Source of the DNA: Cohaesibacteraceae bacterium
Lineage (GTDB): Bacteria > Pseudomonadota > Alphaproteobacteria > Rhizobiales > Cohaesibacteraceae
Direction of reading: 5' to 3'
Assembly (NCBI GenBank): GCA_016764535.1
Contig: JAESRR010000258.1
Location: 14,243 to 22,205, forward strand
Length of the DNA stretch: 7,963 bases
Shown: one piece after another, positions 1,325 through 2,683 of the stretch
Numbering within the stretch: position 1 is the first letter of the stretch
How the letters are laid out: the number at the start of each line of letters is the position of its first letter
Notes under the pieces: generated by a model
What the model saw: the letters and a program-made list of their open reading frames with translations, nothing else
Told to the model about the DNA's origin: nothing
Database searches by the model: none
Translations under genes and position numbers: made by a program

Positions 1325-1441
1325 TGTCCCTGTGATACGAGGTCCTGTACGGCCTCACGCAACTGTTCAGGTATGGGTAGACTGGCGGGCACCATGCCGG
1401 CTCACGGTCTCAAACGACCTGGGGACCAACGGTGTCCCGCC
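1325..1441 (-). ncRNA. Predicted IS110 bridge RNA (seekRNA) in the transposase leader
   Basis: The leader upstream of the transposase folds convincingly on its sense strand. GGCGGG-A-CACC (1441-1431) pairs with GGTGCCCGCC (1393-1384), a 10-bp stem with one bulged A. Inside is an internal loop closed by an apical GGTC/GACC hairpin (1419-1416 with 1409-1406). The 5' side of the loop carries TGGTCCCC (1428-1421), identical to the target flank plus core. The 3' side carries CCGG (1400-1397), complementary to core plus right target. Further on, CAGTTGC (1365-1359) matches the right element end plus one core base, and CACAGG (1334-1329) is complementary to core plus left element end. This is the two-loop layout (target loop, then donor loop) described for IS110 bridge RNAs. 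The target loop is well supported and the donor loop fold is less clear. Both transcript ends are estimates; the 5' end is inferred from the junction promoter. Confidence 0.72.
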
Positions 1442-1447
1442 AACCCC

Positions 1448-1472
1448 ATTCAAGCACATTTCCCAACACACA
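1448..1472 (-). promoter_or_regulatory. Half promoter at the IS left end, completed when the element circularises
   Basis: On the transposase strand the left end contains TTGAAT (1453-1448), preceded by TGC, which is an extended -10 element. When the two ends are joined, the right end CAGTTG plus core CC plus the left-end T forms TTGCCT, 18 bp upstream of TTGAAT. The expected start is then close to 1441, the first base of the bridge-RNA stem. In the integrated state the -35 position reads flank DNA (TCCCCT) and is poor. Junction-formed promoters are known in IS110-family elements; this instance is inferred from the sequence. Confidence 0.5.
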
Positions 1473-1474
1473 GG

Positions 1475-2683
1475 GGACCAGATAGGGCACCATCATTAAT
1501 TGATCCATCATACCCGAAACAGCTGTATCGCGGCGCACGACGATATAGGAAATGAAGCCGGAAAAAACCGAAATCAACGCCACTGCAATGAGAGCAAAGA
1601 CGAAACTGTTAAGGATGGCGTCAGAATTTCTCGACAGCACGCGTGCGTAGCTTTCCAGCCCAAAGCCACCAATGAAAACCGGCCCTTTGGTTTTGAGAAA
1701 AGAGGTGTAAATCACCACAATCGCCGGGGACATGGCGATGAAACTATCACAAAACGATATAAGTGTACCAGCGCATTGCGTACACCCTTGAGCTGGGTGC
1801 GTACGGGGCGATTGGTCAGCGCACTGGCGTAACGTCTTTTCGCCATAATACGTCTCTGTAACAAAAGGGCCAGCATGGAGATTGCCATCATCACCAGCGA
1901 AATTGTTACGGCCATTGTAGGTTTACCACCAAGTTCGGACGTATAGGCCGAATAGGCAATAGTTGAGAGTGTTCGTACACCACGTCCGATAATTGCGGGG
2001 GTGCGAAAATCGGCAATAGACAATACAAAACAAATTATTGCGCCAGTACTGACCGCTGGAAACACCAGCGGCAGGGTTACTTTGAAGAATTTCTGCATGG
2101 CATTACAGCCAAGATTTTCGGCAGCATCTTCAAATGATCTATTGACTGCCTGCAGAGCTGTTTGGGTCATCAAAAACACAAATGGAAAAAATTTCAACGT
2201 GAACACCAGCACAATGCCGTGTAGCCCGTAAATCGTAGGCGTGTTGATGCCAAGACTATGAAACCAGTTAGTAATAAAGCCGTTGGAACCCAACATCATG
2301 ATCCACGCATAGGCACCGATAAATGGTGGTGAGACCAGCACGAGAATAGCCAGAGTAGAGATCAATGCCCGTCCACGAATGTGAAATCGGGAAGTGAAAA
2401 ACGCCAGCGGTACACCGATAAGACAGGCTCCAATGGTACCTGGCGATCCAACCAATAAAGTATTTTTAAAGCCCTTCAGGTAATAGTTACGTGTAAAAAC
2501 CTGAACATAATTGTCGAATGTGAAATCTCCGGTTTTACCATCAAAAAAACTGACAAAAAACATACTGAAAACCGGCAGAACCAGCAGCACAAACAACATC
2601 AGAACGCAGACAATCGTCATCAGTGTCCAGAAATCCGGTCTGGGCAGCAAAAATCGTTTCGATATGGCCGATAGTGCATTCAT
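1475..2683 (-). pseudogene. ABC transporter permease, 5' part, frameshifted and cut by the IS (FbpB/AfuB-type)
   Basis: The start ATG at 2683 overlaps the ATPase stop as ATGA and has a strong GGAGG five bases upstream, so translation was coupled. The first about 313 codons encode a hydrophobic permease half with the first EAA loop (EDAAENLGCNAMQKFFKVTLP, from residue 185) and several membrane segments. After NALVHLYRFVI the frame is lost at 1741-1743: the sequence has GTTTC where GTTTTC would continue as VFIAMSPAIVVIYTS. One T lost from a T run therefore explains the shift. The protein then continues in the other frame (IAMSPAIV... to MMVPYLVP) until the IS at 1475, where the frame runs about 20 codons into the IS leader and stops. 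It imports substrate together with the ATPase and binding protein. The remaining C-terminal part lies at 372-1. Confidence 0.9.

Follow-up and report, generated by a model that had tools for sequence, protein, structure and literature searches.

An IS110-group insertion element splits an ABC transporter permease gene in the 7,963 nucleotides of DNA from a Cohaesibacteraceae bacterium that were analysed here (the window). It is very probable that its 154-nt leader is the source of a bridge RNA, with loops matching both the site that the element occupies and the element's own ends, and that the recombinase would join circle and target at a CC core shared by the two. The parts of this reading that can be taken from the DNA and its relatives directly are the ends of the element, the CC at both of them, an uninterrupted homologue of the split gene, four guide-to-DNA matches, and the covariation of stems and guides. 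The features are collected in Table 1.

Counting one core, the element is 1100 bp long; the cores lie at 1474–1473 and 374–373 (minus strand), and a long left end, the leader, is set against a right end of just 8 nt (382–375, minus strand). Pfam finds in the recombinase both the RuvC-like DEDD domain (PF01548) and the Tnp domain with its serine (PF02371), the DSG and EA-G motifs can be aligned with those of relatives, and the matches in the Protein Data Bank are just two, IS621 (8wt6, E 1.8e-33) and ISCro4 (9t56, E 4.2e-33). Genes on plasmids similar to the one that is split are annotated as iron ABC transporter permease. When the flanks are joined via one CC the reading frame is unbroken across the site, and a Neorhizobium plasmid homologue that lacks the element aligns with 67% nucleotide identity and is gapless at or near the junction, the 12 gap positions in 611 all lying away from it. 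Thus, from the continuous frame and the gapless homologue, the insertion looks exact. It should be noted that the transporter operon seems to be broken beyond the element too (window 1–2683 and 3847–4682): the permease frame appears to shift at two places, near 240 and near 1730, and there is a split in the solute-binding protein near 4100–4190. These extra breaks are either decay or assembly errors. The protein encoded elsewhere in the window, at 6309–7520, has a LytTR DNA-binding domain together with MHYT repeats.

Table 1. Features of the element and of the site that it occupies (window coordinates).
Feature	Position	Strand	Basis or detail
IS110-group insertion element	373..1474	-	CC direct repeat, joined-flank frame, uninterrupted homologue, relatives' ends
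Recombinase, 311 aa	383..1318	-	Pfam PF01548 + PF02371
Left end / leader, 154 nt, predicted bridge RNA source	1319..1472	-	aligned leaders
Predicted target-binding loop	1384..1441	-	covariation, 15 leaders
Left target guide TGGTCCCC	1421..1428	-	identical to 1480-1473; own-flank test in relatives
Right target guide, matched part CCGG	1397..1400	-	
Predicted donor-binding loop	1323..1371	-	CCTG 1371-1368 with CAGG 1326-1323; inner hairpin 1356-1339
Left donor guide CAGTTG	1360..1365	-	equals element's right end 380-375
Right donor guide CACAGG	1329..1334	-	complement of core + left end CCTGTG (1474-1469)
Left target plus core of occupied site, TGGTCC-CC	1473..1480	-	
Core plus first two right-target bases, CC-GG	371..374	-	

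A first-pass annotation of this DNA had drawn attention to an 8-nt copy of the occupied site within the leader. Its sequence and coordinates are right: TGGTCCCC at 1428–1421 is identical to the target flank plus core at 1480–1473 (both minus strand). The base that precedes it is a U opposite a flank C, recorded here too as a possible U-G wobble, and CCGG is found at 1400–1397 (minus strand) as described. The internal loop is indeed closed by a 10-bp stem (1441–1431 with 1393–1384), in which GGCGGG-(A)-CACC pairs with GGTG-CCCGCC around a bulged A that is invariant among the aligned leaders; the inner hairpin is formed by 1419–1416 and 1409–1406 (minus strand). The odds of such a match had been put at well under one in a hundred, which was too strong, the 8-mer being present in 264 of 20,000 dinucleotide-shuffled leaders (1.3%, or about one in a hundred). 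The leader also contains four of the 873 8-mers that end in CC and come from outside the element (0.5%), the flank itself included. The fold energy of the leader is ordinary (z = -0.55, with 51 of 200 shuffles folding as well), and Rfam gave no match at the gathering threshold. Taken alone, the match in the window is weak evidence, and the case rests on relatives.

The right half of the occupied site agrees less well with its guide. It pairs as CC plus GG alone, so that two of five non-core positions match, the lowest value among the ten closest elements; the 4 nt of pairing are the minimum of the 4–7 nt rule, and nine close relatives have 4–8 contiguous. Furthermore, the right end of the element has a G opposite the left donor guide where the 15 other aligned rows all have an A. 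It is possible that the element is weakened, or that its landing site was second-rate. The genome has three other TGGTCCCCGG sites, one of which (G000:C232:7097) continues with CT and could also be paired by the right guide; it fits the guides better than the occupied site, yet is empty.

No second independent insertion of the same element was found. The other copy of the leader in the genome, on contig C71 (L002, 1501–2007), is a truncated duplicate of the same insertion: 507 bp that are 99.8% identical to window 1085–1591, beside unrelated DNA, carrying the 5' part of the element and the permease flank. Since it duplicates the same insertion, it provides no independent test. No close copies of the element were seen among the best 120 of 663 protein matches, in which the best relatives are 53% identical; elsewhere, the best identity is 49% in the genomes searched, 47% on plasmids and 43% in genome contigs. 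Viral contigs gave no relatives by protein search, and none of the 7 stretches picked out in them by a pattern scan resembled, by eye, an element leader. Among the relatives are several whose own ends could be fixed with the help of multiple copies: G137 with five, G247 with four, G215 with thirteen by leader pattern, and G353 with thirteen by pattern, many of them at contig ends.

Agreement between guide and flank was scored in 13 elements in one register, which was set from a leader alignment made without the flanks (G082b, with no left end found, and the redundant G215b, Smed2 and Smed3 were left out). The left guide matches the element's own flank at 102 of 104 positions, in elements that between them carry ten distinct guides; all 13 match, 11 of them at 8/8 and two at 7/8. 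For the six non-core positions the agreement is 76/78, whereas permutation gave 38.6 on average and 64 at most, so that none of 100,000 permutations was as high. Counts were made both with and without three elements of a C-rich subtype (G082a, G350 and Smor); when these are included the non-core figure is 91/96 (mean 41.1, maximum 75, again 0 of 100,000). Three pairs of elements share left guides (the window element and G133, G215 and G162, and the Sinorhizobium and Agrobacterium elements), so that the guide pairs are not all independent; in G133, the guide shared with the window element lies behind the same eight bases. A looser test with free guide position, in 38 elements, gave matches of 7 nt or more in 13 of 38 own pairings against 19 of 1406 crossed ones (L008, which has no left flank, scored zero). 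The right guide follows the same trend at its non-core positions, with 41/50 in ten elements (mean 24.4, four of 100,000 permutations as high), 39/45 when the window element is omitted (7 of 100,000) and 48/65 in 13 elements (0 of 100,000); G353, G133 and Atum, without a defined right end, are absent from the right-target counts. Because twelve relatives match their own sites at the same place in the leader, it is likely that the RNA chose the landing spot.

The leaders of 12 of these 13 elements (that of G353 is cut by a contig end) were aligned with those of the three C-rich-subtype elements, and the covariance folding that had been proposed was run on these 15. There are two predicted stem-loops with internal loops, the target loop preceding the donor loop, and both covary. 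In the named structure 91.9% of cells are paired, 13 of the 28 pairs have changed on both sides, and none of 500 shuffles gave as high a covariation score; sliding the partners by one to three columns reduces pairing to 51.3% or less, although the tested structure is an edited version of one predicted from this very alignment, so that the alignment and the slide control favour it. Homologous leaders in which stem and loop match were not conserved had been named as evidence that would count against a bridge-RNA target loop; 13 of 13 own flanks match and the stems covary, and that reading of the loop is supported, the RNA itself being predicted. In the C-rich subtype (L093, L095, L108 and L168, with a GGGAGCCCGTCCCCC loop) the left guide does not keep to the register, and the rules for the right guide and the handshake base fit poorly; this subtype may have different rules.

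The donor loop and the CC core were absent from the first-pass annotation and are added here. Each donor guide matches one of the element's own ends over 6 nt, and the second core base is unmatched by the left one. The ACAGG that lies within the donor hairpin is not the right donor guide, which the aligned leaders show to be CACAGG at 1334–1329. In the published model, the base after each right guide pairs with position 7 of the other DNA. The predicted handshake base of the target loop, C1396, directly after CCGG, is invariant in 15 of 15 aligned rows and faces an invariant G, so that it is uninformative by variation. The handshake base of the donor loop varies, and with the target base beside the core it forms a Watson-Crick pair in 11 of 15 elements (G facing target C in eight and A facing T in three, two of these three being close relatives), a wobble in one (G facing T) and a mismatch in three, G353 giving no data; all three mismatches are C-rich-subtype elements.

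There is evidence that the CC core belongs to a group of elements rather than to this one alone. Among elements with both ends defined, CC is found at both ends in ten of ten CC elements and CT at both in 24 of 24 CT elements (three further CT elements are without a right end); the end patterns allowed CC or CT only, and other cores would be missed. The right donor guide changes with the core. In a search of all positions downstream of the left donor guide, it was found in its own-core version in 24 of 34 elements and in the swapped-core version in none, its core-pairing bases being GG with CC and AG with CT; three of 37 elements had no donor motif and were left unscored. The right target guide has its own-core version in 28 of 32 elements and the swapped version in five, three of which carry both, so that the switch is noisier than on the donor side. 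In the tree, ten CC rows, the window element among them, form a supported group (99/94), which lies inside a wider supported set (98/95) of 16 rows, 14 CC and two CT. CC is not strictly one clade, the tree needing three label changes when L020 is counted as CC. L020, whose core label is uncertain and for which no right end was found, is in the tree and in the 38-element test and outside the core, residue and handshake counts.

According to the IS621 structure paper (Hiraizumi 2024, PMC11208158), the second base of the core is an almost invariant T, with which the main chain of G63 makes the reading contact, and the reprogrammed cores described in the published passages, AT, GT and TT, all keep the T. 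No report of a CC-core group was found in open-licence full texts, a scope outside which ISfinder and supplementary tables lie. Position 77 of the recombinase is Arg in 14 of 14 CC rows and in two of 27 CT rows, and position 61 is Asp in 13 of 14 CC rows, the window element having Gly, and in none of 27 CT rows; both lie near IS621 residues that read the core. Arg77 and Asp61 as putative core-reading residues are only a lead, since columns of this kind are accounted for equally well by common descent and by function. We consider it probable that a branch of bridge recombinases, mostly from the element's own order (which was searched most), has in nature exchanged a CT core for CC, breaking with the near-invariant T, with the guide RNA going from AG to GG and the recombinase reading C where IS621 reads T. 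Enzymes with another core would be available from such a group, and direct comparison would help to find the residues that read it; the group is also a compact natural test of guide-to-target agreement, with the handshake base included.

Three other explanations have to be weighed against a bridge RNA acting at a CC core. The 8-nt match could be a coincidence in a G+C-rich leader, with the protein alone picking the site. The frequency of the 8-mer in shuffled leaders, the single-sequence fold and the weakly matched right half of the site are all compatible with this, but coincidence is very unlikely given that the same register fits the flanks of 13 elements with ten guides, to a degree that permutation never reached, and that in most elements the handshake base agrees with the target. 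A system that is real but has CT or a single C as its core, with CC an artefact of how boundaries were called, is improbable to a lesser degree. The left end starts with T, giving a C-T step at the left junction, the end patterns were restricted to two cores, and G350, of the C-rich subtype, has a T after CC on the right; against this, the two ends agree in every CC and every CT element with both ends defined, the nine close CC elements that have a right flank continue with G or A after CC, leaving no CT there, and the core-pairing bases of the right donor guide follow the core with no swapped case in 34 elements.

Finally, the loop copy might be the scar of a self-insertion, flank and leader then sharing ancestry with no guide relation. 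Such events exist in relatives. In L093 (G082; around 1330–1360 and 2410–2500) an element is inserted at the left guide in the target loop of a related element, and the flanks on both sides are the leader of that other element; the DNA of a guide can itself serve as target. In L111 and L175 (G137:C21) part of the left end of one copy is duplicated ahead of that copy and cut at the left guide, an arrangement that self-insertion followed by recombination would leave. A narrow pattern for events of this kind was seen in two of 397 genomes of the order, these being the L093 and L111 cases. In the window, by contrast, identity ends at 8 nt (plus the possible wobble), the flank is permease coding sequence that continues in the uninterrupted homologue, and both leader copies in the genome are whole across the loop, which makes a scar extremely unlikely.

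With a bridge RNA as the preferred reading, the steps of insertion can be proposed by analogy with the IS621 work. Both the production of the RNA and its role in guiding insertion are inferred on the same grounds. Its transcription would start at a promoter created by the joining of the ends in the circle. In the 16 rows aligned the right-left end junction is TTGCCT, or TTGCTT in G190; the hexamer 17 nt on, a spacing that was imposed and left unscored, is CTTGAA here, a poor -10, and is -10-like in some relatives. The RNA would then bind the recombinase, with one loop on the target site and the other on the element ends, each left guide pairing with the bottom strand and each right guide with the top strand. 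The recombinase would join circle and target at the CC core, serine-mediated strand exchange there giving insertion without gain or loss of a base.

This is an IS110-group bridge RNA system, the RNA steps of which are proposed from homology to the one that has been studied. The IS621 system, in the passages that describe it (Durrant 2024, PMC11208160; Hiraizumi 2024, PMC11208158), resembles it in having a recombinase with DEDD and Tnp domains, a long left end and a short right end, a target loop that precedes the donor loop, a handshake base, a core within the target guides, and left and right guides that match the bottom and top strands, respectively. It differs in its core, which is CT, and from what is described of its RNA in that the structured part here is about 119 nt, with no separate 5' stem-loop identified in the window leader. 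ISCro4 (PDB 9t56), compared by recombinase sequence, is homologous over residues 6–309 (E 4.2e-33). The seekRNAs of IS110 and IS1111 elements (Siddiquee 2024, PMC11187229) are, from the passages concerned, the same phenomenon under another name: the RNA is non-coding, lies upstream in the IS110 type and matches both target strands over short stretches. The IS110-family example there is ISEc21, and those passages make no mention of a CC-core group. IS1111 differs in that its long right end carries the RNA, the right end here being 8 nt. The element falls outside the IS621-type CT-core subset, since CC stands at both ends here and in nine other CC elements. What goes beyond the known IS621-type CT systems is this unusual core, found at both ends and within a group of like elements, together with core-pairing bases of the right donor guide that switch with it.
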